DNA of 50,930 nt. Source: Thraustochytrium sp. TN22. Taxonomy: Eukaryota; Sar; Bigyra; Thraustochytrida; Thraustochytriidae. The position numbers were made by a program, and so were the translations under genes. Where the stretch lies: assembly GCA_013306675.1 (NCBI GenBank), contig JABLUY010000257.1, forward strand, positions 1 through 50,930. The letters run 5' to 3'. The notes under the pieces are model-generated. The model saw only the letters and a list, made by a program, of their open reading frames with translations, had not been told where the DNA came from and made no database searches. Shown one piece after another: positions 3-34,408 of the stretch (position 1 is the stretch's first letter; each line of letters starts with the position of its first letter).

Positions 3-740
3 TACTACGGGGAGGCGCTGGACATCCGCCGGGAGGCCCTCGGGCCGCGGCACCCGTCCGTGGCGGAAACGCTCAACAACATGGCGGCTGCATACGACTC
101 ACAGGGCCTCTACGAGGATGCGCTGCGGTCCTACGGGGAGGCGCTGGACATCATGAGGGAGGCCCTCGGGCCGCGGCACCCGGACGTGGCGGGAACGCTC
201 AACAACATGGCCATCGTGTACAGGAATCAGGGCCGCTACGAGGATGCGCTGCGGTACTACGGGGAGGCGCTGGACATCCGCCGGGAGGCCCTCGGGCCGC
301 GGCACCCTTCCGTGGCGACAACGCTCAACAACATGGCCGTGACGTACGACTTCCAGGGCCGCTACGAGGATGCGCTGCGGTACTACGGGGAGGCGCTGGA
401 CATCCGCCGGGAGGCCCTCGGGCCGCGGCACCCTTCCGTGGCGGCAACGCTCAACAACATGGCGGCTGCATACGACTCACAGGGCCTCTACGAGGATGCG
501 CTGCGGTACTACGGGGAGGCGCTGGACATCAAAAGGGAGGCCCTCGGGCCGCGGCACCCTTCCGTCGCGGGCACGCTGTACAACATGGCGGCGCTGCACA
601 TGAAAAAGGGTCACTTCGCGACGGCGATGCCGCTGTTTGAAGAATCGCGAAGCATCTTTGAGGAGGTGCTTGGCCCGGCCCACGCAGAGACGGTGGACGC
701 TGCAGCTCAGGTCCGAGCCTGCCGCGATCAGATGCGTTGA
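3..740 (+). CDS. TPR (kinesin-light-chain-like) repeat protein, 3' part only
   Basis: The frame is open from the window edge to the stop at 740, so the start lies outside. It consists of 42-residue tetratricopeptide repeats of the kinesin-light-chain/TPR_12 type, each built around YEDALRYYGEALDI and REALGPRHP, giving about four full copies after a partial first one. The last unit is degenerate (from GHFATAMPLFEES) and ends CRDQMR. This tail matches the tail of the whole gene at 1699-3957, which ends CRDQLR, so the two are tandem paralogues. By analogy the missing N-terminus may carry the same HET/TIR-like module, but that is inference. TPRs of this class bind protein ligands; the partner is unknown. 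True kinesin light chain is unlikely, since no heptad N-terminus is visible and the repeats are far more uniform than in that family. Confidence 0.85.
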   Translation, partial: YYGEALDIRREALGPRHPSVAETLNNMAAAYDSQGLYEDALRSYGEALDIMREALGPRHPDVAGTLNNMAIVYRNQGRYEDALRYYGEALDIRREALGPRHPSVATTLNNMAVTYDFQGRYEDALRYYGEALDIRREALGPRHPSVAATLNNMAAAYDSQGLYEDALRYYGEALDIKREALGPRHPSVAGTLYNMAALHMKKGHFATAMPLFEESRSIFEEVLGPAHAETVDAAAQVRACRDQMR

Positions 741-1698
741 CTCGGGCTCTTACGACATGAGATGAGGGAGGCGAAGTCTCGAGAGATAAAGGAGATGTGA
801 GATAAAAATTGTCCTGCGTGTTGCAACAGATGCTGGTCTTGCCTGACAGTGAACACGATGCGGTCAGCATGGCTTGTAGTTCCTGACGGCAGCTGACTTC
901 CCAGAGAGACTCACTCTCTCAAGAACGAGCTTGCGTTTTCCACGCTCCTCGTCAGCGACGAGGTCCTCTCGACAGCCAGCGCAGTCGCAGCGGTCCAGCT
1001 CGTTCGAAGCACGATCCTTCATTGCTCACACCTTCGCCAAAGGTGCTGCACATCTACCGCGACGCCAGCGACGAGCTCCGCCTTGCCGTGGCGCGCTACA
1101 CTCTCCCGCGCAGCCGAAGAAGACGCCCGAGCCCGGCGCTTGCGCAGAAAGGACAGCCGCCGCCCGTCCCCAGCGGCGCCGCCCACTTCGAGGCACGCGG
1201 CAAGATGCCATGCACCTCGACGACCAGGTTGTCGCCGCCGCCGCGCCGAGCGCGCCGGAGATCGCGAGCGCAGCAGGCCCCTCCTCCCGCGGCGTCCGAG
1301 TCCTCGGCGGTGATGAGTGCTTGCGCGCAGTGCGCGAGCGCCCTCTGAGTCGGGCAGGCTGTGCAGGCGAGGACCGGGACCCGGCGCTTGCCGTGCAGGC
1401 GCGTGAGCGCAGCGCAATCCTGAGCGCGGCTGAGAGCGGGCGAGGGCGGCTGAGAGCGGCTGAGAGCGCTGAGAGCGGCTGAGAGCGCCTCTTCTCGCTC
1501 TCCTCCGTTCTCCTCCGCTGCAGCCTGCTCTGCCCAAGCCCGGCTGTGCAAGCCCGCACACCCCGGGCCAGCGCGCCGGCCCGAGAGCGGCCGAGTCGAG
1601 CCTGAGAGCGGCCGCCGGCGCGCCCAGCGCCGCCTGCAGAGCCCGTTCGCCTCGTCTCGCCGGCGGCGCGACGCCTCAGCGCCGCGCGCGCCGCCAGC
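741..1698. other. Intergenic region with decanucleotide repeat
   Basis: No gene is recognised between the two TPR genes. At about 1429-1490 there is a run of imperfect copies of GCTGAGAGCG, and the wider stretch 1060-1690 is very GC-rich. Frames open on both strands here are Arg/Ala/Ser-rich and look like composition artefacts. The region presumably holds the 3' end of the upstream gene and the promoter and leader of the downstream one. Confidence 0.5.
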
Positions 1699-3957
1699 AT
1701 GTCGGGCTTCTTCTCGCACGCGCGGGCCAGCCTGCGCCGCAGCCTGGACGGCCGCCGCGAGAGCGCGCGCTACCTCGCCGAGGAGGCCAAGATCGTGGAC
1801 TACCGCAGCATCAGCCTCTACGCGGTGCAAATGGTGCTCAAGGGCGTGCTGGACGGCAAGCTCGCGGAGGACGTCGTGCTGGTCGTGGCGCTCCGCGAGC
1901 TCGGTGAGAAGGTGGACAAGGGCGCCACGCTGCGGATCGTGGCCGAGGTCGGGGACGACCTCGTCCAGGTCAAGGCCGCGTACGTGGACGAGGAGCTCTT
2001 TGTGATGCTGGGCCAGGACGTGGCCCTCAAGCCGCGCGAGGACTGGAGCACCGAGGACATCGCGGAGCACGTCGTCATGTCGCGCACGCTCAGGATGCCC
2101 CCGGACCAGGCCTTTTACCTCAACGCGCTCCCGCCAGGAGCCGTGGGCGGGCGCTTCCAGGGCACGTTTACAAGCCAGGCGCGTCGCTGCCGCTTCGCCG
2201 ACCTCGTGCACGCGCTCGAGGGGCACTTCAGGGACCAAGACCCCAAGGGTGTCTTCGTGTGGCTGGACCTGTTCTGCGCCAGCCAGCCGCTCCTCACAAG
2301 CCAGGACCGGCCCGCCGCTGCGGTCCAGGCGCGGCGCGAGGAGATCTTGACGACCGGCCTCCACGAGGCCATCACGCGCTTCGACAGCGCCATCATCTTC
2401 TTCGACAGGTGGGACAAGCCCCTGCCCCTGCAGCGCGCCTGGTGCGTGTGGGAGATCTACGGTGCCGTCCGCAGCGGCCGCCCCATCGACGTGGTCTACG
2501 CGCCCGGCGAGGAGGACCGCTTCGTAGAGCAGCTGCTCAACGATCCACGCGCGATCGCCACGATCATGGCCCGCAACATGGACATGCGGGGTGCGGCATG
2601 CTGGAAGGCCGAGGACAAGGCCATGATCGACCGGTCCGTGACCGAGAAGCTGGAGGGCGGCTACAGCACCCTGAACATGGAGATCCAGGGCCGGCAGCGC
2701 GCCTGGCTCGCCGCGATCGCTCGCGACCGCGTCGCCCAGCTCAGGCAGCGCGGCGACGGAGACCCCCTGGAAATGAGCAGAATGCTGAACCAAGCGGCGA
2801 TGCTGCTGAATCGCCATGGCGACTATGAGGAAGCGCTGCAGTACTTCGGGGAGGCGCTGGACATCATGAGGGAGGCCCTCGGGCCGCGGCATCCCGATGT
2901 GGCGACAGCGCTCAACAACATGGCGAGTGTGTACGACTCCCAGGGCCGCTACGAGGATGCGCTGCGGTACTACGGGGAGGCGCTGGACATCAGCCGGGAG
3001 GCCCTCGGGCCGCGGCACCCGGACGTGGCGGACACGCTCAACAACATGGCGGTCGTGTACGACTCCCAGGGCCGCTACGAGGATGCGCTGCGCTACTACA
3101 ACGAGGCGCTGGAGCTGTACAGGGAGGCCCTCGGGCCGCGGCACCCGTCCGTGGCACAGACGCTCAACAACATGGCGATCGTGTACGCGGCCCAGGGCCG
3201 CTACGAGGATGCGCTGCGCTACTACAACGAGGCGCTGGAGCTGACACGGGAGGCCCTCGGGCCGCGGCACCCGGACGTGGCGGACACGCTCAACAACATA
3301 GGCATGGTGTACGACTCCCAGGGCCGCTACGAGGATGCGCTGCGCTACTACAACGAGGCGCTGGAGCTGTACAGGGAGGCCCTCGGGCCGCGGCACCCGT
3401 CCGTGGCACAGACGCTCAACAACATGGCGATCGTGTACGCGGCCCAGGGCCGCTACGAGGATGCGCTGCGCTACTACAACGAGGCGCTGGAGCTGACACG
3501 GGAGGCCCTCGGGCCGCGGCACCCGGACGTGGCGGACACGCTCAACAACATGGGCATGGTGTACGACTCCCAGGGCCGCTACGAGGATGCGCTGCGCTAC
3601 TACAACGAGGCGCTGGAGCTGTACAGGGAGGCCCTCGGGCCGCGGCACCCGTCCGTGGCACAGACGCTCAACAACATGGCGAACGTGTACGAGGCCCAGG
3701 GCCGCTACGAGGATGCGCTGCGCTACTACAACGAGGCGCTGGAGCTGACACGGGAGGCCCTCGGGCCGCGGCACCCGGACGTGGCGGTATCCTTGTACGG
3801 CATCGCGAACGTCCGCTTTGCCCAGCGCCGATTCCGTGATGCCTTGCCTCTATTTGAGCAAGCCCGAGACATCTACACGGAGGCCATTGGTCCCGAGTAC
3901 GAGTGGGCGGTGAATGCACGAGCTCAGATCCAACGCTGCCGCGACCAATTGCGCTGA
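1699..3957 (+). CDS. HET/TIR-like effector-domain protein with eight KLC-type TPRs
   Basis: The 752-residue protein starts at the ATG at 1699. Residues about 1-145 form a domain I do not recognise. Residues about 150-285 resemble the HET/TIR-like fold: a hydrophobic strand ending in WLDLFCASQ (188-196, compare W-I-D-x-x-C-I-N-Q of HET domains), then a helix-rich part, then a strand and RAWCVWE (246-252, compare R-G-W-T-x-Q-E). Residues 374-709 hold eight 42-residue TPRs with REALGPRHP in each, and a degenerate ninth closes the protein. From unit three on, the repeats alternate as near-identical 84-residue pairs. HET and TIR domains often act as cell-death or NADase effectors, and TPR arrays as ligand sensors, so a role as an NLR-like receptor is an attractive inference. 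The assignment rests on motif pattern only. The upstream gene is a paralogue. Confidence 0.85.
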   Translation: MSGFFSHARASLRRSLDGRRESARYLAEEAKIVDYRSISLYAVQMVLKGVLDGKLAEDVVLVVALRELGEKVDKGATLRIVAEVGDDLVQVKAAYVDEELFVMLGQDVALKPREDWSTEDIAEHVVMSRTLRMPPDQAFYLNALPPGAVGGRFQGTFTSQARRCRFADLVHALEGHFRDQDPKGVFVWLDLFCASQPLLTSQDRPAAAVQARREEILTTGLHEAITRFDSAIIFFDRWDKPLPLQRAWCVWEIYGAVRSGRPIDVVYAPGEEDRFVEQLLNDPRAIATIMARNMDMRGAACWKAEDKAMIDRSVTEKLEGGYSTLNMEIQGRQRAWLAAIARDRVAQLRQRGDGDPLEMSRMLNQAAMLLNRHGDYEEALQYFGEALDIMREALGPRHPDVATALNNMASVYDSQGRYEDALRYYGEALDISREALGPRHPDVADTLNNMAVVYDSQGRYEDALRYYNEALELYREALGPRHPSVAQTLNNMAIVYAAQGRYEDALRYYNEALELTREALGPRHPDVADTLNNIGMVYDSQGRYEDALRYYNEALELYREALGPRHPSVAQTLNNMAIVYAAQGRYEDALRYYNEALELTREALGPRHPDVADTLNNMGMVYDSQGRYEDALRYYNEALELYREALGPRHPSVAQTLNNMANVYEAQGRYEDALRYYNEALELTREALGPRHPDVAVSLYGIANVRFAQRRFRDALPLFEQARDIYTEAIGPEYEWAVNARAQIQRCRDQLR
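2818..3825 (+). repeat. Tandem 126-bp TPR-coding repeat with 252-bp higher-order period
   Basis: Eight in-frame units of 126 bp encode the TPRs. Units 3-8 (3070-3825) fall into three successive 252-bp blocks that are almost identical in DNA, third codon positions included; they alternate ELYREALGPRHPSVAQ and ELTREALGPRHPDVAD types. Such silent-site identity points to recent unequal crossing over or gene conversion. Confidence 0.9.
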
Positions 3958-13967: not shown

Positions 13968-14864
13968 TCAAGCCTCAGGAGGCTCGAGCGAGACGACGAC
14001 GTCCTCGGCACCCACAATGGGCTGCACGCCCGCAGACCACTGCGTCGGGGAAGACTCGGCAGCGGCAGCGGGGTCGTCGGAGTGCACAGACTCGCTCTGT
14101 GCCGCAGTATCCTGGCTCCGGGCTACCGGGAGCGGCTTGGAGAGCACGTGCTCCTGAAGCGCAGCCTGCAGCGCCGGGAGCGACACGCGGCTGGCGAGGT
14201 CCGAAGGCGGGAGCTGCAGGCGCTCCTCGGCGTTGCGGCTGACGCTGAGCGTCTGGCGCTTGAAGGCCTCCACGATGCGGTCCCAGCGGTTCTCCTCGGC
14301 GCGGATGGCAGAGTTCGGCGCGCCGTCGGCGTCGGCGTTCTGGCCCTGGCCGGCGTGCTGCGCGCCGCCCATATCCTGGCCCTGGCTGGAGCCGGGCGCA
14401 CCGGGCGCCGGGCTGCCGGCGCTGGCGGAGGCGTCGGCGCCGTTGGCGCCCTGGCCGTCGGCGCGGCGGTCGCCGGCCGTCTGGTCCGCGAGGTTGTGGA
14501 TAGACTCCGGCACGTACTGGTCCGGATCGAGCGAGAGGAAGAGGCAGAGCAGGCGCCAGGCCGCCTCCGCTGGCAAGTTGGCCACGATCTTGTTGACGAG
14601 GTCGTCGAGGAAGGCCTGCAGCTCGCGCTGGCGCTTGGCCACGAAGTCCGGGTTGGTGTTGCCCCAGAACTTCTTGGGCGGCACCTCCGGGATCGGGAAC
14701 GGGTGCCTGAACTTGCACAGCTGCGCGTGCAGCTCCACGAACTCGCGGAAGCGCCGCTCCACCGTCGACAGCTTCGCAGCGCCGGCGCAGAGCTCCACCT
14801 TGTACACCACGTGCTCGCCCTTCATCTTGTGGCTCCGGATCACGGCGCGGATCGGCTGCGACAT
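13968..14864 (-). CDS. PX-domain (phosphoinositide-binding) protein
   Basis: I choose the minus-strand ATG at 14862-14864 (298 residues, beginning MSQPIRAVI). The frame is open further upstream but is a poly-Ala/Gly run coded by a GCC repeat, so not credible as protein. Residues about 2-120 are a PX domain: RRFREFVELHAQL carries the Arg that contacts phosphoinositide, FPIPEVPPKKFWG is the proline loop, and RQRELQAFLDDLV is the C-terminal helix. PX domains bring sorting nexins and related proteins to endosomal membranes. The remaining 170 residues are Ala/Gly/Asp-rich and probably disordered; no BAR or RGS domain is visible. It is divergent from the reductase gene at 15251. Confidence 0.85.
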   Translation of the reverse strand: MSQPIRAVIRSHKMKGEHVVYKVELCAGAAKLSTVERRFREFVELHAQLCKFRHPFPIPEVPPKKFWGNTNPDFVAKRQRELQAFLDDLVNKIVANLPAEAAWRLLCLFLSLDPDQYVPESIHNLADQTAGDRRADGQGANGADASASAGSPAPGAPGSSQGQDMGGAQHAGQGQNADADGAPNSAIRAEENRWDRIVEAFKRQTLSVSRNAEERLQLPPSDLASRVSLPALQAALQEHVLSKPLPVARSQDTAAQSESVHSDDPAAAAESSPTQWSAGVQPIVGAEDVVVSLEPPEA

Positions 14865-14896
14865 CCTGAAGCGCTCCCTCCGGCCCCGGCCGCCGC

Positions 14897-14927
<31 letters not shown>

Positions 14928-15250
14928 TGCCCGCCGCCCGCCGCGCGCGCAAGCGACGCCAAGGCGAAAGCCGCTTTGACGCGGCGGCTCCGCTCGACCG
15001 CCATCGTCGACTCCAACGTCGCCCCCGCCGGTACCGCAAACAGGCACCGGTACCACGGCGCCGCGGCGCCACTCGCACGATGCGGAGTCAGCGGCAGACA
15101 GACTCGCAGACCCCGACGCCGTAAGCGCCGCTCGAGCGATCCTGCGACTCCGCGGCGGGCCGGAGGAGCCCGCGCGGCCGCGTTGCCCCGCAACCTGCCC
15201 GGCGGGACCTGCCCGGCCGGCGCCCGCGTCGTGCGTCCGGCGACAGCAGC
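14865..15250. promoter_or_regulatory. Divergent promoter region between PX gene and triple-FMN reductase
   Basis: The 386 bp between the two start codons contain a GCC-type trinucleotide repeat at about 14880-14940 next to the PX start. No gene is seen. Both promoters must lie here, but no specific element can be named. Confidence 0.4.
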
Positions 15251-18200
15251 ATGGCGCAGAACAAGGTGACCATCCTGTACGGCTCGGAGACGGGCAACGC
15301 GCAGTCCATCGCGGAGGGACTGCTGGAGGCGAGCGCGGAGGAGGGCTTCGAGGGCGTCCTGGCGCCGCTGGATGACTTCAAGAAGGTCGGCCTGGGCGCG
15401 GGCGGCGGCGGCGGCGGCGAGGGCGACCAGCGCCTCGTGCTCATCGTGACCTCGACGACCGGCAATGGCGAGCCGCCGCGTAACGCGGACAAGTTCTGGA
15501 GGTTTTTGAGGAGGCGCACGCAGCCCGCCGACCTGCTGGTCGGCACGGCGTACGCCGTCCTGGGCCTGGGCGACACCAACTACGACCAGTTCTGCCTCGT
15601 TGGCAAGCGCGTCGACGAGCGCATGGCTGACCTGGGCGCCGCGCGGCTGCAGCCGGTGGCCTGCGCGGACGAGGGCACGGACATGGAGAAGACTGTAGAG
15701 CCCTGGCGCCTCGGCATTTGGGACGTGCTGCGCAAGCACACCGCCCCGACGCCGCGCGCGCGCGCGCCCAGCGGCGACGAGAGCTCGGAGCAGCCGGTGG
15801 ACGCTGCGCCCGCCGTCGGCGCCGCCGAGGCCACGCCGCCGGCCACGCCGCGCGGCGAGGACAGTGCCGAGTCGCGCAGCGCCAGCTCGCCGAGCGCGGG
15901 CGCCGGCGCGGCTGGCCTCGCCACGGCGAGCGAGGCCGCCACGTCGGCGACGGCTGCGGCACCGGCGGCCTCGCAGCCCAAGGAGCTCCTGGTCATGTAC
16001 GGGTCCGAGACTGGAAACGCCGAGGCCATTGCCACGCAGGTGCACGAGCTGGCCGCGAGCCACGGGTTCGCCTCCAAGGTCGCTGAGATGAACGCCTTCA
16101 AGGATGTCAAGCTGACCGAGCAGACGCTCGCACTCTTCGTCGTGTCCACGACCGGCAATGGCGAGCCGCCGCGCAACGCGGACACGTGCTGGCGCTTCTT
16201 GCGGCGGCGCACACAGCCCAAGGACCTGCTGCAGGCCATGCGGTACGCAGTGCTGGCGCTCGGCGACACCAACTACGACCAGTTCTGTAACGCCGGCAAG
16301 CGGCTGGACCAGCGCCTCGAGGAGCTGGGCGCCGTGCGCGTCAAGAGCATCGCCTGCGCCGACGAGGCCGTGGGCCTGGACCAGGTGGTGGAGCCGTGGA
16401 AGGAAGACATTTGGGCCGCGCTCGCCACCGCTGCCGGGCCTTCACCAGCCGCCGCAGCGCCTGCGGACGCCGCGCCGGCTGCAGCGTCTCCGGACGCCGC
16501 GCCGGCGGCCCCGCCGCAGACGAAGGAGACCGGTTCGGGCGACCCCTTCCGCGACGAGGTGCTTGTCCTGTACGGGTCTGAGACGGGCAACGCGGAGGCG
16601 ATCGCGACCAAGCTTCATGAGAAGCTGGGCGATCAGGGGGCGCGCACCAAGCTGGCGCCCATGGACGACTTCAAGAAGGTGGGCTTTTTGGAGGCCAAGG
16701 AGGCGGTCTTTGTGATCTCTACGACGGGCAACGGCGAGCCGCCGCGTAACGCCGAGGTGATGATGCGGTTTTTGCGGCGGCGCTCGCAGCCGGAGAACCT
16801 CTTGCAGCACCTGCGATGCGCGGTGCTGGCGCTAGGCGACACCAACTACGATCAATTTTGCAATGCCGGCACCTCGCTGCACCGGCGGCTGACGCAGCTG
16901 GGCGCCTCGAGCTGGCTGCCGCTCGCGCGCGCCGACGAGGCCGTCGGCCTGGACCAGGTCGTGGAGCCCTGGATCGCGCAGGTGCTAGCGCGCGGCGTCG
17001 CGCCGGCGGTTGATGCCGCGCCGGCGCCGGCGCCCGCGCCGGCGCCGCCGGCGCCGACCCTGGCGGGCACCAAGCCCGCCGCCGCGGCCGCATCCGCCCC
17101 CAAGGCCGTGCAGCAGCCCGCCGGGCTCCCTGTGCGTGTGGCAGCCGCGGCGGGCAAGCCCCCGGCGCCCAGCTCGTACGCGTCGGCGACGAGCAGCGCG
17201 TCGGCGGGCAACGGAGACAAGGCCGACGGGGACGCGCCTGGGTGGCGCGAGGCCGGCGCGCCGCTTCGGTTTGCGGACGTGTGCGAGCTGGCGTCCTTGG
17301 AGGAGCTGGAGAAGAGCACGGTGCGGCCGGGGAACCTGGAGGCCTGCCTGGCGCGCGTCAAGGAGCTGGGCGAGGTGGCCAGCCCGGACGGGAGCGACCC
17401 GGCGACGGCGGCGGCGGCGGCCGGGCGGCGGCTGCGGTTTCGGTCTTCCTCGGGCGAGTCGCCGTCGAGCGTGGTGGGCACGAGCGCGGCGCACCCGATC
17501 GACGCCGACCTGGTGGAGGCCGAGTACCTGTCTCGTGGCGAGGACGTGAAGCGCGTGCTGCGCGTCGTCCTGGAGCTCAAGAGCGCGGAGCTGCCGGTGC
17601 AGTGGAACCCGGGCGATGCGCTGGGCATCGTGTGCCCGAACCCGGAGACGCTGGTGACCAAGGTGCTGGCGCGGCTGGGGCTGCGCGGCGGCATGCAGGT
17701 GGAGGTGACGACGCGTGCGCGCGGGCCGGCCGGGTCGGCCGCCACGGCCGGCGCGACGCAGACGCAGGAGCGGCCCATGTTCTCGAGCCTGGGCGCCGTG
17801 ACGAGCCTGCAGCAGATCTTCACGTGGGGCGTGGACATGACCTCGACGCCGCGCAAGGCGTTCTTCCGCATGCTCTCCGAGTACTGCAGCGACGCGCTGG
17901 AGCGCGCGCAGCTGCGGTACCTGAGCTCGCTCAAGGGGCGCGACGTCTTTGTGAAGCTGGTGGAGGCGCAGCAGCTGACGCTGCTCGAAGTGCTGGAGCT
18001 CTTTCCCTCGTGCGCCCCGCCGCTCGAGTACCTGCTGCACGGATTGCCCAAGCTGGCGCCGCGCTTCTACTCGGTGGCGAACTCGCCGCTGGGCCCGGGC
18101 GGCTACCGGCGCGTGACGCTGGCCGTCACGGTTGTGGAGACGGAGCTGGCGGGCCCCGCCGGTGCAACACGCCTCGTGCACGGGCTCTGCTCCTCGTGGC

Positions 18201-18970
18201 TCGAAAGCCTGTCGGCGCGGGTGGCGCAGGGCGCTGCCGCGGGCGGTGGCGTCGCCTCGCTGCCCGGGTCGCGCCCGCGCGCCCTGGACGCGGTGCTGCG
18301 CAAGGTGGGCCGCGTGGGCGCCGCCCAGGTCGCGCCGCCGCGTCTGTGCGTCTTCTTCCGCAGCTCGTCCGCCTTTCATCTGCCTGGCGACGTGGAGATC
18401 CCGCTCATCATGATCGGGCCGGGCACGGGCGTCTCGCCCTTTGTGGGCTTTATCGAGCACCGCCGCTACACCAAGTCGCTGCAGAATGCCGTGCAGGGCG
18501 ACCTGTACGAGGGCTACTGGCGCGGCGGCACGCGCCTGCGCGCCACGGACCTGACGGCCAGCCTCGCTTGCGAGCCCGAGCAGGAGCTCAAGTCCGAGGT
18601 CGCGCCGAGTGACTTATACTACGGCTGCCGCTACGAGGACCGCGACTTCCTCTTCAAGTCCTTGTTGCGCCGCGAGGAGTGCGCCGGCGACGTCCTCGGC
18701 CGCTTGCGCTGCGCCTTCTCGCGCCAGGGCGCCGAAAAGGTCTACGTGCAGGATCTGCTGCGCGCCGACGGCCAGGCTGTCGCCGACTGCATCCTGCGCC
18801 GCGGCGCCTTCATCTACGTCTGCGGCGACGGTGTCGCCATGGCGAAAGATGTTCACAAGGTGCTCGAGGAGGTCCTCGTCCAGCACGGCCGCCTCTCCAA
18901 GCAGGACGCGTTGGCGAAGCTCGACGAGCTCGCCAAGCGCGGCCGCTACAAGCGTGACATTTGGTCTTGA
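15251..18970 (+). CDS. MTRR: Methionine-synthase-reductase-like flavoprotein with three tandem FMN domains
   Basis: The protein is 1239 residues, starting at the ATG at 15251. Three flavodoxin-like domains stand in series (about 6-160, 245-390, 436-580). Each has the FMN phosphate loop YGSETGNA, the STTGNGEPPRNA loop and LGDTNYDQFC, and each ends in a (V)EPW segment. Ala/Pro linkers separate them. An FAD/NADPH reductase unit follows: FAD motif RFYSVANSP (938-946), NADPH loop GPGTGVSPF (1056-1064), LYYGCR, CGDG (1191-1194) and the C-terminal DIWS, which matches methionine synthase reductase closely. Normal members have one FMN domain and about 700 residues. The family passes electrons NADPH to FAD to FMN to cobalamin-dependent methionine synthase or a related acceptor. 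Domain 1 is the most diverged, with a glycine insert at 49-56 and TDMEKTVEPW instead of VGLDQVVEPW. The acceptor is not known from this window. Confidence 0.9.
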   Translation: MAQNKVTILYGSETGNAQSIAEGLLEASAEEGFEGVLAPLDDFKKVGLGAGGGGGGEGDQRLVLIVTSTTGNGEPPRNADKFWRFLRRRTQPADLLVGTAYAVLGLGDTNYDQFCLVGKRVDERMADLGAARLQPVACADEGTDMEKTVEPWRLGIWDVLRKHTAPTPRARAPSGDESSEQPVDAAPAVGAAEATPPATPRGEDSAESRSASSPSAGAGAAGLATASEAATSATAAAPAASQPKELLVMYGSETGNAEAIATQVHELAASHGFASKVAEMNAFKDVKLTEQTLALFVVSTTGNGEPPRNADTCWRFLRRRTQPKDLLQAMRYAVLALGDTNYDQFCNAGKRLDQRLEELGAVRVKSIACADEAVGLDQVVEPWKEDIWAALATAAGPSPAAAAPADAAPAAASPDAAPAAPPQTKETGSGDPFRDEVLVLYGSETGNAEAIATKLHEKLGDQGARTKLAPMDDFKKVGFLEAKEAVFVISTTGNGEPPRNAEVMMRFLRRRSQPENLLQHLRCAVLALGDTNYDQFCNAGTSLHRRLTQLGASSWLPLARADEAVGLDQVVEPWIAQVLARGVAPAVDAAPAPAPAPAPPAPTLAGTKPAAAAASAPKAVQQPAGLPVRVAAAAGKPPAPSSYASATSSASAGNGDKADGDAPGWREAGAPLRFADVCELASLEELEKSTVRPGNLEACLARVKELGEVASPDGSDPATAAAAAGRRLRFRSSSGESPSSVVGTSAAHPIDADLVEAEYLSRGEDVKRVLRVVLELKSAELPVQWNPGDALGIVCPNPETLVTKVLARLGLRGGMQVEVTTRARGPAGSAATAGATQTQERPMFSSLGAVTSLQQIFTWGVDMTSTPRKAFFRMLSEYCSDALERAQLRYLSSLKGRDVFVKLVEAQQLTLLEVLELFPSCAPPLEYLLHGLPKLAPRFYSVANSPLGPGGYRRVTLAVTVVETELAGPAGATRLVHGLCSSWLESLSARVAQGAAAGGGVASLPGSRPRALDAVLRKVGRVGAAQVAPPRLCVFFRSSSAFHLPGDVEIPLIMIGPGTGVSPFVGFIEHRRYTKSLQNAVQGDLYEGYWRGGTRLRATDLTASLACEPEQELKSEVAPSDLYYGCRYEDRDFLFKSLLRREECAGDVLGRLRCAFSRQGAEKVYVQDLLRADGQAVADCILRRGAFIYVCGDGVAMAKDVHKVLEEVLVQHGRLSKQDALAKLDELAKRGRYKRDIWS

Positions 18971-29878: not shown

Positions 29879-32800
29879 ATGCAGCGGTCTGCGCGGTCGC
29901 CGCGGCAGCATCGCGGGGCCGCGAGCCGCGAGCCGCGCGCAGCGCCGGCCGGGCCGGTCGCAGTGCGGCTGCCTGATGCGGCAGGACCTGAGCAGCGCCA
30001 TGACGAGGGCCCCGCCCAAGCCCGCGCTGGACGCGCAGCGCCGGGCCGGCCGTCTCCGTCGCCGAGGTCGTGGACGACGGCGCGGAGCAAGAGCAGCGCA
30101 TTCGATCAGCTGACCAGCGTGGCGATGCAGTCCAAATGGGTCAGGAGCGAGGAGGACCAGGTCCGCCTGACCGAGGGCGCGGTGCTGGAGAGCTCGCTGC
30201 GCGTCGCGCAGGTGCACGTGGACGGCCCGGAGCTCCTCGTCCATGCCAAGGTGCCTCCGCATCGCGCCACGCCGCCTCGTACCACGTCGCCCCGGGTAAA
30301 ACGAGGCGTCCTGCTCAGTCAGTCGCGTGAGGCCGTGCAGGCGGGCGTGCGCAAGCTGGACCGGGCCGCCAAGATGGACGCTGTGGAGGACATGCATCGG
30401 ATGGCGCGCTCACTGCGGCGCTTCCGCGCGGCCTGCACGGCATTGCACGCGCCGGACTCGGCCTTGGAGGCCAAGCTCGCCGCGCTGCGCACGGCGTTGC
30501 GCTCCGCGTTGCCCCAGCTCGTCACCGGCTGTTGCCTTGTGCTCCAGGTCCTGCTCCCGCAGGAGACATATCCCACGTGCATGGGCCCGCCAGTCGTCCT
30601 GCTGGGTTCGTCGGCCACGGAGCCGCGCATGGTGCTCAATCGCGCCGCGCACGCGGACGTGGATGCCCGACAGCAGAACGGCCTGCCCGAGGCGGTCCTG
30701 CGCGAGGCGCTTGAACTGCGGAGCTTTGCGGTGGTCGAGGGCTTTGCGGTGGCGCCCGTGCGCGACGGCAGCGGCAACCTCGTCGCATGCATCTGCAGCG
30801 CGCCCGGGGAGAGCGAACGGCCGGCAGACCCGACCTTTGTGGCGCTTCTGCACAGAAGCGCGGCGGCGCAGCTGAGCATGCTCCTCGAGCGTCAGCGCAT
30901 GCCGCGCTCGACGCAGACAGACCTGGACACCGCGGGATTCAAGGCGCTGCGTGTGGATGCCGCAGCCTGCATGGCGCGCCAAAGGCTCGGAGCCAGTGCC
31001 GACCTCTTCACGTTGGCGCGTAACCTGCGCTCGGCGCTGCGAACGCACGTCGGGCTGTGCACGGACTTTGTGGTTGTCTTCAGGGACGGCAAGGAGGCCT
31101 TCTTGCTCCTGGACAAAGTGCCGGCGTCCGGCGCCGTGTACTCGCACTCCGGCGCCGTGCGCGTCGTGCTTGACGATCGAACCGACCCGGAATCCAACGC
31201 GCTACTCTCCACGGCACAGGTGCGCGCCTCGCTCGGCCCGGACCGCCTCCCGGCACTGCTGCGCTGCTTGCGCCAGACGACGCGGGACCCGGTGTGCGAG
31301 CCGGCCGGCACGCCGCTGCCGGACGTGCTCGGCTTCGCGATCGAGGACCTCGCGCCAGCGGTGCGCTCCCAGCGCTGCGTTGCTCAGACTTGCGTGCCGG
31401 TCCCGCGCACGCACGCCAAGCGCTTCGAGCGGCCGCTGGCGGCCATGTGCGCGCTCAGCGCCGCTCCGCTGCCCACGTCCGAGGTCGACAAGCTCCAGGC
31501 CATCGCAGCGGCCGTCGCGTCCACCGTCGAGGCAGCGCACACGCTCTACGAGCGCGGCCGTGAGCGCCTGGCGGCGTCCGTGACCCTGCGCGCCAGCATC
31601 GACAGCCGACGTGACGAGCGCGCCGCGCAACAGGCGCTCACCGACATGGTCGGCACGGCGGTGACGCTGGACCGGCCCGAGGACCTGCTGGCCACGCTCC
31701 AGGAGTGCGCCACTGAGGTGCTGGCCACCAAGACGCGCCCGCGCGTGTGGCTGCGCGAGGACTACGCGCTGCTGCTGGCCGACGTCGCTCGCGGCGACGC
31801 GGCCGCCGATGCAGCGGGCCGCCGTCTCGTCGCTCTCGCGCTCGACGACCCCACCAAGCTCGAGTGGCGAGACCTCGGCGTGGGGGACCTGTACGAGCAT
31901 GTCGTGCTGGAGGACGCCGTGCGCATGCTTGTGCCGCTCGTGAGCCAGCCGGAAGGCCACTTTGTGGGCCTGCTCGAGACCTCCTCGCCCATTCTGTACA
32001 ACGTGGAGGAGTCGCGCCTCAGCAACCTGCACGGCGCGGGCGGTGTCGTGCCCAAGCGTTGGATCGTGCACAGCTTGCATTTCGCGCGCGTCGCGGCCGA
32101 CGTGACGCGCGCCGTTCTGGTCGCCTCGCACGGGGCGACGCGCCTGCGGGGGCTGGCCGTGCCGCAGGAGACCGCGCTGGCGCGCGCGCAGTCCCTGCTC
32201 GAGGCCGTGGCGTCGGCGCCCGGGCCTTGTGGCGCGCTCGCTGTGCCCGTGGACTACTTTATCTCGCTGGGCCGCGCGCTCTTGGACGCGCGCGTGGCCT
32301 CCGCCTTCTCCTTTGACAACACCGTGAACCCGCGCGCGCTCGTCCCCGTCTGCTCCTCGACGGCCGTCTCTGGCGCGCAAAACCTCGCGCACATGGACGC
32401 CGTGTATTTGCAGCGGCGCGTCGGCTGCTCCGTGGTTCTTCGCAGCATGGCGCCGACCAACGCCGCCGGCCTCATTCCTGACGAGGACTACGACGGCGAC
32501 GTGGTTGGCGCGGTTCGCGTCGCCTGGGAGGGCGGCGAGGGCGAGGAGGCGGCTGCTGTGGCAACCTCTGAAGAGGAGGACGCCTGCATCCGCAATTTTG
32601 TGCGGCCCGGCGCGGCCAGCGACCACGACACGCTCGCGCTGGAGCTCAAGAACCTCAGGATCACCACAGCGTCCTCGGTCAACTCGACGAGCGGCGGCGG
32701 CGCAGGCGGCCCAGGCGGCCCAGGCGGCCCCACGGAGGGTGGCGATGGTGACAACAGCCATGCCGAGGAGGAGGACTACGACGATTGCGAGAACGTGGTA

Positions 32801-34408
32801 GACCCGGATCCACGGCGCATGGACTCCATCGTATGCGGCGCCGAGCACCTGTACACAGCGCTGCGGCCGAGCGTCGCCACGCGCATTGCGCAGGCCGAGA
32901 TCGACGCGGACATGAGCGTGCGGCAGCGGCGCTACTGGAGCGCGCAAACCGGACTTGTCGCCCACTTCTCGCGGCCGCGCGTGCTGGACAAGCCCGCCAA
33001 TGCCGAGGCCGGCTGGCTCGAGGCGCAGCGGCGGCTGGACATCGTGCGCGCCGGCTTCAACGTGGCCGAAGTTCGCCTCGCCGAGGTCCTACTGGCGCAG
33101 GTCTCCGTGCTGTGGCGCGGCGTCTGGTTGCTGGACGAGGTGCAGGCGCGCCTGCGCCGCGCCACGTGTACCCAGGACGTCTTTGTGGCGCTCGCCACCT
33201 GCCTGCAGCCGGACGCCACGGCGCTGGGCGGGCTTGCGACGCGCCTGCGCGAGCTTGTTGCATGCCATCGCCTCACGCTCTGCGCCGTGTACGGGCCGGT
33301 CATCGTCCCCGTCGCCCAGGCCGAGTACGGAGTGGCGGCCTCCTCACACGCGTCGCGCTTCATCGTGGCTGCGACCAGCGGCGAGCGACTCGCCCTCTGC
33401 GTGCGCGAAAAGGCCTGCGTGGCGTCGAGCGCCATTGGCGAGGGCGCCTCGAGCGGCGGCGCGGCCACTCCGTCCACGTCGGCGTGCGGGATCATGCTGC
33501 GGTCCGAGCCTGTCGAGGGCGGCAAGGCGTACACAATTTGGTCAGAGCTCTGCGTGCCGGTCGTGGACCCGGAGTCGGAGCGCGTCGTGGGCGCCATCCA
33601 GGCGTGCAACCGCGTCCCGCTCGGGCGCGACGCTGGCCACGACCTCGACCCCGTGGGCGGCACCGGCTACGCTGGCGACCGCGCCCACTCACTCGAGTCC
33701 TTCACTGACGCCGACGTGCGCGCGCTCGCAAAGAGTGGCCTCTTGCCGCTGCTGGCGCGACTGCTGGCCAGGGCTGATGTCGCGGCGCTGCACCCCAAGG
33801 CGCAGCGCGCCGCCGTGACCTCGGACGGCACGACGGACATTCACTCCACCCAAGTCGCGCTGAGCCGCGCCAAGGCGTCCTTCTTGCGGGGCATGATGCG
33901 CGCCAAGGAGCGCATGGAGCGACGGCAGCAGGCCAGCAACGTCATCATGGAGCGCCGGTCCTCGGCGCGCAAGCGCGAGTCTCTGGAAAAGGTGGACACC
34001 GAGGCGGTGCGCGATCAGAAGCAGCGCGATGAGGCGCAGCGTCGTCGGCACGAAGAGGAGAGCAAGCTTTCACCCGAAGAGCGCCGCCAGCGCCGCATGG
34101 CCAAGCTCGCCCAGGAGGCCGGTGACGCCGTCGTGGTAGGCGACCCGCGCAAGTTCGTGCGCATGGCGGCCAAGCGCTTCTTGGAGGATGAGGCGCTGCG
34201 CCGCGACCGTGAGAAGCGTAGTATTCTCGAGCGCCGCAAGGAGAACCGCGATTGGGCCACCATGGTTGGCATCTCCTCCAGCGCCGCACACCAAAGCTTC
34301 AAGGTGCGCTCTGCGCATGTCGAGACAGGCTTCTCTGCGGACACGGAGCTCACCAAAGCGCAGAGCACGGCCAGATTGCCTGGCTCGCCCGTGCGCAGGC
34401 GACGCTGA
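29879..34408 (+). CDS. Very large GAF-domain protein with basic coiled-coil tail
   Basis: The frame encodes 1509 residues from the ATG at 29879. A second candidate start is the ATG at 30125 (Met83), and residues 1-82 are Arg/Ala/Pro-rich and less protein-like, so the start is uncertain. Several GAF-like regions are suggested. One lies at about 390-560 (strand FVVVFRDGKEAFLLLD). The clearest lies at about 1180-1290: SELCVPVVDPESERVVGAIQACNR followed after a loop by FTDADVRALAKSGLLPLLARLL, the standard GAF ending. A Gly-rich, then acidic linker is at about 938-970. Residues 1330-1460 are highly charged and coiled-coil-like (SPEERRQRRMAKLAQEAGDA). GAF domains bind cyclic nucleotides or other small ligands; no kinase, cyclase or phosphodiesterase domain is attached. 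A scaffold or ligand-sensing role is inferred. Confidence 0.75.
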   Translation: MQRSARSPRQHRGAASREPRAAPAGPVAVRLPDAAGPEQRHDEGPAQARAGRAAPGRPSPSPRSWTTARSKSSAFDQLTSVAMQSKWVRSEEDQVRLTEGAVLESSLRVAQVHVDGPELLVHAKVPPHRATPPRTTSPRVKRGVLLSQSREAVQAGVRKLDRAAKMDAVEDMHRMARSLRRFRAACTALHAPDSALEAKLAALRTALRSALPQLVTGCCLVLQVLLPQETYPTCMGPPVVLLGSSATEPRMVLNRAAHADVDARQQNGLPEAVLREALELRSFAVVEGFAVAPVRDGSGNLVACICSAPGESERPADPTFVALLHRSAAAQLSMLLERQRMPRSTQTDLDTAGFKALRVDAAACMARQRLGASADLFTLARNLRSALRTHVGLCTDFVVVFRDGKEAFLLLDKVPASGAVYSHSGAVRVVLDDRTDPESNALLSTAQVRASLGPDRLPALLRCLRQTTRDPVCEPAGTPLPDVLGFAIEDLAPAVRSQRCVAQTCVPVPRTHAKRFERPLAAMCALSAAPLPTSEVDKLQAIAAAVASTVEAAHTLYERGRERLAASVTLRASIDSRRDERAAQQALTDMVGTAVTLDRPEDLLATLQECATEVLATKTRPRVWLREDYALLLADVARGDAAADAAGRRLVALALDDPTKLEWRDLGVGDLYEHVVLEDAVRMLVPLVSQPEGHFVGLLETSSPILYNVEESRLSNLHGAGGVVPKRWIVHSLHFARVAADVTRAVLVASHGATRLRGLAVPQETALARAQSLLEAVASAPGPCGALAVPVDYFISLGRALLDARVASAFSFDNTVNPRALVPVCSSTAVSGAQNLAHMDAVYLQRRVGCSVVLRSMAPTNAAGLIPDEDYDGDVVGAVRVAWEGGEGEEAAAVATSEEEDACIRNFVRPGAASDHDTLALELKNLRITTASSVNSTSGGGAGGPGGPGGPTEGGDGDNSHAEEEDYDDCENVVDPDPRRMDSIVCGAEHLYTALRPSVATRIAQAEIDADMSVRQRRYWSAQTGLVAHFSRPRVLDKPANAEAGWLEAQRRLDIVRAGFNVAEVRLAEVLLAQVSVLWRGVWLLDEVQARLRRATCTQDVFVALATCLQPDATALGGLATRLRELVACHRLTLCAVYGPVIVPVAQAEYGVAASSHASRFIVAATSGERLALCVREKACVASSAIGEGASSGGAATPSTSACGIMLRSEPVEGGKAYTIWSELCVPVVDPESERVVGAIQACNRVPLGRDAGHDLDPVGGTGYAGDRAHSLESFTDADVRALAKSGLLPLLARLLARADVAALHPKAQRAAVTSDGTTDIHSTQVALSRAKASFLRGMMRAKERMERRQQASNVIMERRSSARKRESLEKVDTEAVRDQKQRDEAQRRRHEEESKLSPEERRQRRMAKLAQEAGDAVVVGDPRKFVRMAAKRFLEDEALRRDREKRSILERRKENRDWATMVGISSSAAHQSFKVRSAHVETGFSADTELTKAQSTARLPGSPVRRRR

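Follow-up and report, generated by a model that had tools for sequence, protein, structure and literature searches.

The movement of one flavin mononucleotide (FMN) domain between its donor and its acceptor is believed to limit electron transfer by diflavin reductases; in NDOR1, for instance, the entire protein contains one FMN domain. We analyzed a gene at positions 15251–18970 (+) of a 50,930-nt stretch of DNA from Thraustochytrium sp. TN22 (contig JABLUY010000257.1, assembly GCA_013306675.1; this whole stretch is called the window), the product of which, here the reductase, places three FMN domains ahead of one unit for flavin adenine dinucleotide (FAD) and reduced nicotinamide adenine dinucleotide phosphate (NADPH). 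The original prediction made for this DNA had stated that known diflavin reductases carry one FMN domain; this is true of the characterized enzymes covered by the available part of PMC3509625, but not of all predicted ones. According to the accessible passages of PMC10617192 (2023), the Volvox carteri protein Vocar.0018s0107 is predicted to have three flavodoxin domains and an FAD domain, a layout said there to be common to many green algae and the Phytophthora clade and to be uncharacterized in any species. The reductase fits that wording, in that an FAD-binding domain comes after three flavodoxin domains in its single chain. In Volvox the gene is divided into several exons, with alternative N-termini and two isoforms of different predicted localization (same passages), whereas the reductase gene is a single uninterrupted frame, and the two are likened by description only.

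Among the characterized enzymes, NADPH-cytochrome P450 reductase (CPR) has an N-terminal membrane anchor of 50–60 amino acids (aa), a single FMN domain, and a short linker, and the hinge ahead of the FAD domain is ∼80 aa in methionine synthase reductase (MTRR) compared to 10–15 aa in the others (PMC3509625, in the part available; the long MTRR hinge also in an excerpt of PMC13376404). A survey of B12 genes in algae and plants gives MTRR flavodoxin, FAD, and oxidoreductase Pfam domains, with no number of copies stated (PMC11439496, in the section available). The three-flavodoxin plus FAD layout is already on record as a prediction, and no functional study of it was found in open-licence PMC text; new here are the link of this layout to MTRR and the analysis of its three FMN sites. 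We consider it probable (roughly 60%) that the reductase is a soluble, NADPH-dependent enzyme of the MTRR type whose FMN domain was brought to three copies by tandem multiplication, and that it likely serves cobalamin-dependent methionine synthase, the enzyme that MTRR re-activates.

Three FMN domains in one reading frame

The gene is a single uninterrupted open reading frame (ORF) of 1239 codons plus the stop, which is included in the coordinates. An in-frame stop lies at 15122, 42 codons upstream, and the ATG at 15251 is the first to follow it in frame. Pfam recognized PF00258 (Flavodoxin_1) in three stretches (whole-protein E 3.2e-97), one PF00667 (FAD_binding_1, E 2.7e-35), and one PF00175 (NAD_binding_1, E 2.5e-7). 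The order of flavodoxin, FAD/connecting, and NADPH domains in one chain is that of the diflavin family, whereas the count in the sequence, three FMN domains per FAD domain, departs from its rule of one FMN per FAD. The features are as follows.

15263–15748 (+): FMN domain 1, residues 5–166, carrying a 9-column Gly-rich insert not present in domains 2 and 3
15749–15979 (+): linker between FMN domains 1 and 2, 77 aa, Ala+Pro fraction 0.45
15980–16438 (+): FMN domain 2, residues 244–396
16439–16555 (+): linker between FMN domains 2 and 3, 39 aa, Ala+Pro fraction 0.59
16556–16996 (+): FMN domain 3, residues 436–582
16997–17455 (+): hinge from FMN domain 3 to the FAD unit, ∼153 aa, Ala+Pro fraction 0.41
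17486–18199 (+): FAD-binding and connecting domain, PF00667, residues 746–983, best PDB match MTRR
18410–18859 (+): NADPH-binding domain, PF00175, residues 1054–1203
18956–18967 (+): C-terminal DIWS, the same as the end of human MTRR

The motifs GSETGNA (residues 11, 251, and 442), STTGNGEPPRNA (residues 68, 299, and 490), and LGDTNYDQFC (residues 106, 337, and 528) are present in every copy. When the FMN-contact columns were defined by what we take to be the positions of the contact loops of rat CPR, 23/23 of them were identical across the three copies, compared to 42/124 of the other columns (Fisher p 5e-10). A model of domain 1 (residues 1–166), built from an alignment with 37 other rows, adopted the flavodoxin fold with a mean predicted local distance difference test score (pLDDT) of 91.2, and its best fold match in the PDB was the FMN domain of NDOR1 (4h2d; TM 0.87 by query). 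Degenerate outer FMN domains are ruled out by the contact columns together with this model, and the three sites would each be expected to bind FMN. Domain 3 is the weak spot of the series, having a shorter C-terminal end and lacking the second (end-helix) Trp found in domains 1 and 2. Outside the FMN loops, all three domains keep a basic motif, RFLRRR(T/S)QP (approximately 15506–15541, 16199–16234, and 16772–16807), which may form a common docking surface.

The protein identities between the domains are 56% (1 and 2), 51% (1 and 3), and 63% (2 and 3). At identical residues the codons differ in 27/84, 27/75, and 40/92 cases, respectively, and independent draws from the gene's own codon use would give 31.8, 29.9, and 36.2 differences. 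Observed counts this near the expectation mean that synonymous sites have reached saturation, and hence that the duplications are old; since the contact columns have nevertheless stayed identical, all three FMN sites appear to have been under long-kept constraint. The divergence of the proteins and the saturation of their synonymous codons rule out a misassembly, whether collapsed or duplicated, and a recent duplication. The linkers are also unlikely to be a by-product of the genome, as Ala+Pro fractions of at least 0.45 were found in 10 of 4557 39-aa windows taken from ten neighboring ORFs, which rules out base composition alone as their source. The hinge was modeled with pLDDT <50 over its first two thirds and with predicted helices thereafter.

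Several claims of the original prediction therefore hold. The single continuous frame was recovered, with no GTRAG donor-like motif in any of its seven segments; the three flavodoxin domains with intact FMN loops were seen in both the motifs and the contact columns; Pfam returned just one FAD/NADPH unit; the translated chain does end in DIWS; and the misassembly that the prediction had named as its undoing does not apply to copies of this age.

Relationship of the FAD/NADPH unit to MTRR

A search of the PDB with residues 701–1239 matched 47 distinct sequences, with human MTRR at the top (233.4 bits) and the best CPR, NOS (NO synthase), and CysJ entries at 168.9, 129.5, and 98.5 bits, respectively, in agreement with the MTRR-like identity first proposed. 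The MTRR alignment is unbroken over residues 729–1073, whereas all four of the CPR alignments listed, two of them to rat CPR, break at about residues 986–1034, where MTRR and the reductase have extra residues in common. The first FMN domain starts at residue 5, leaving no space for an N-terminal anchor of the CPR type, and Pfam at E up to 0.1 detected no heme oxygenase domain of the NO synthase type. The hinge is long, as in MTRR, and DVWS is the CPR ending among the mammalian alignments listed, compared to DIWS in the reductase. Near the end of FMN domains 2 and 3 lies GLDQVVEPW, the counterpart of which in human MTRR is GLELVVEPW. From these comparisons the assignment of the predicted FAD/NADPH unit to MTRR is well supported. 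The reductase thus resembles MTRR (human 2qtl) in its FAD/NADPH unit, long hinge, missing anchor, DIWS end, and extra residues between the FAD and NADPH domains, and differs from it in having three FMN domains instead of one, a hinge about twice as long, and Ala/Pro-rich linkers. With CPR it shares the overall FMN-FAD-NADPH fold and the cofactor residues, unlike that enzyme in score, FMN domain number, anchor, and linker length (the CPR features being those in the available part of PMC3509625).

A number of observations weigh against the MTRR reading. The best PDB sequence match of FMN domain 2 was NDOR1 (4h2d, 95.7 bits), and the listed MTRR entries, 2qtl and 2qtz, gave matches restricted to the FAD/NADPH part. 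In a tree of FMN domains, MTRR (a provisional sequence on a long branch) took no clear place relative to the three copies and the bacterial CysJ-type domains. When the model of domain 3 plus the FAD unit (mean pLDDT 73.8, predicted template modeling score 0.60) was searched with Foldseek, CPR and NOS chains came first and MTRR was absent among the 50 matches listed. The Chlamydomonas gene Cre16.g683550, an ortholog of the Volvox gene according to the accessible passages of PMC10617192, is entered in a table of PMC10413257 (seen as an excerpt) as NOS1, a NO synthase ferredoxin reductase. Lastly, neither a methionine synthase nor another B12 gene was recognized among the 30 other ORFs of the window scanned with Pfam.

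The three FMN domains are 35–39% identical to the human MTRR domain (provisional sequence), 35–36% to NDOR1, and up to 40–45% to bacterial domains. The NDOR1 FMN domain was the top solved match of domain 2 by sequence and of domain 1 by fold, at an identity in the 31–36% class. The tree was poorly resolved (of 22 inner branches, 2 were starred and 11 open); one of its branches, supported at 78/87 and recovered in 76% of 200 bootstrap trees, had the three copies together on the same side. NCBIfam returned only CysJ and flavodoxin models, with the whole protein scoring 505 bits, below the CysJ cut-off of 668. The FMN domains of bacterial CysJ-type reductases are 33–47% identical to those of the reductase over the matched part; in the best 80 of 106 bacterial relatives, 78 ORFs also contained the FAD unit, but none (0/80) had a second FMN domain. 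Viral contigs yielded no relative in single-protein, domain-alignment, FAD-unit, or domain-2 scans, and none of the 8 phage and 123 plasmid records matched covered 80% of the query. On this evidence, relatives with the same layout are ruled out among the prokaryotic and viral sequences searched.

Proposed electron relay and competing explanations

Multi-lipoyl E2 proteins and tandem-ACP synthases, which have unrelated folds and cofactors, offer an analogy in which tandem carrier domains on Ala/Pro-rich linkers serve one catalytic core. In the reductase, electrons would pass from NADPH to FAD, to FMN, and on to the acceptor, with each FMN domain swinging on a flexible Ala/Pro-rich tether from the FAD site to the acceptor and back. 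On a flavodoxin, the sites for donor and acceptor overlap and are mutually exclusive (PMC3509625, in the part available), so a single FMN domain must move, releasing one partner before it meets the other. With three arms, one could be docked on the acceptor at the same time as another is reloaded at the FAD; the presumed advantage would be faster turnover, with as many as three reducing equivalents stored per FMN redox step. The acceptor is probably cobalamin-dependent methionine synthase; in the human system, the FMN domain of MTRR sits on the Act domain of methionine synthase and the rest of MTRR also binds the C-terminal half (PMC13376404, in excerpt). We tentatively suggest, as a possibility well short of an even chance, that the reductase is a three-armed relay, an old and widespread variant of MTRR in which one NADPH/FAD unit loads three independent FMN arms, reloading overlaps with delivery, up to three reduced FMN stand ready, the limit of one partner at a time is lifted, and the rate at which methionine synthase is repaired depends on the extra arms.

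The three domains might instead distribute electrons from the one NADPH/FAD input to different acceptors, such as methionine synthase, cytochromes, and a NO-synthase-like or Fe-S partner. Outside the FMN loops the domains have diverged (the 42/124 identical columns given above) and their net charges are −6, −4, and −1 for domains 1, 2, and 3, such that their docking faces may differ, and the differing predicted localizations of the two Volvox isoforms (PMC10617192, in part) are in keeping with this idea. We judge a distributor unlikely, however, as the presence of RFLRRR(T/S)QP in every copy points rather to one partner for all of them or to a shared way of docking on the FAD unit. Somewhat less credible is an ordinary MTRR in which only domain 3 works, with domains 1 and 2 as spare copies of little effect or ballast for expression or stability. 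Domain 3 does occupy the normal position beside the FAD unit, and the linkers put the outer domains a further 39 and 77 residues away, but loops conserved in all three copies despite saturated synonymous sites are difficult to account for unless each FMN site is under selection, and it is domain 3 that has lost the end-helix Trp.

The Foldseek ranking and the NOS1 label of the green-algal candidate ortholog, both described above, would fit a partner of the general CPR or NO synthase type in place of MTRR. We regard this as improbable given the lead of MTRR in the FAD/NADPH unit (233 bits compared to 169 for the best CPR and 130 for the best NOS) and the lack of an anchor and of a heme domain. 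That the gene is an artefact of annotation, made of separate genes or a misassembled tandem, is barely credible. Continuity of the transcript is read from the frame, which contains loose in-frame intron candidates (GT[AG]..YAG) in two of the linking segments (three in the first linker, none in the second, and four in the hinge), one of which, at 17176–17382 in the hinge ahead of the FAD unit, has a somewhat stronger donor; part of a linker could thus conceivably be spliced out. The frame is nevertheless open throughout, the GC content at third codon positions is 0.77–0.94 in every ORF segment longer than the four N-terminal residues, the copies have diverged to 51–63% identity, and the same layout is reported in Volvox with spliced transcripts (PMC10617192, in the passages available).

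If the MTRR-type identity that we favor is true, B12-dependent methionine synthesis becomes a candidate function for the three-flavodoxin proteins of Volvox and Phytophthora. Three natural arms on one FAD unit would also allow arm number, tether length, and docking to be tested directly as the factor that determines how fast electrons are transferred.

Gene neighborhood

The locus is nuclear, GC-rich, and eukaryotic, with compact, largely uninterrupted ordinary genes. The GC content of the window is 0.61–0.77 in 2-kb steps, and ARAGORN detected no tRNA in it. The ORFs scanned with Pfam include TPR arrays, a protein kinase, a PX protein, a CCCH zinc finger protein, a mitochondrial carrier, OGG1, HAUS6, Prp31, a SNARE, and an alcohol dehydrogenase. 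The PX-domain ORF (13968–15056, −) stands head to head with the reductase gene, its annotated start being 195 bases from the ATG at 15251, and the two may possibly have a promoter region in common. Further downstream, an ORF of 1509 aa (29879–34408, +) has no Pfam match at E up to 0.001; it may encode a protein or be a frame left open by chance in GC-rich DNA. Two frames close to the beginning of the window (60–740 and 1699–3957, +) encode strong TPR_12/TPR_10 arrays resembling kinesin light chain. The long antisense frame opposite the TPR array (1096–3774, −) matches COQ9_N only through repeated short stretches, and this match is probably a shadow of the TPR repeat.

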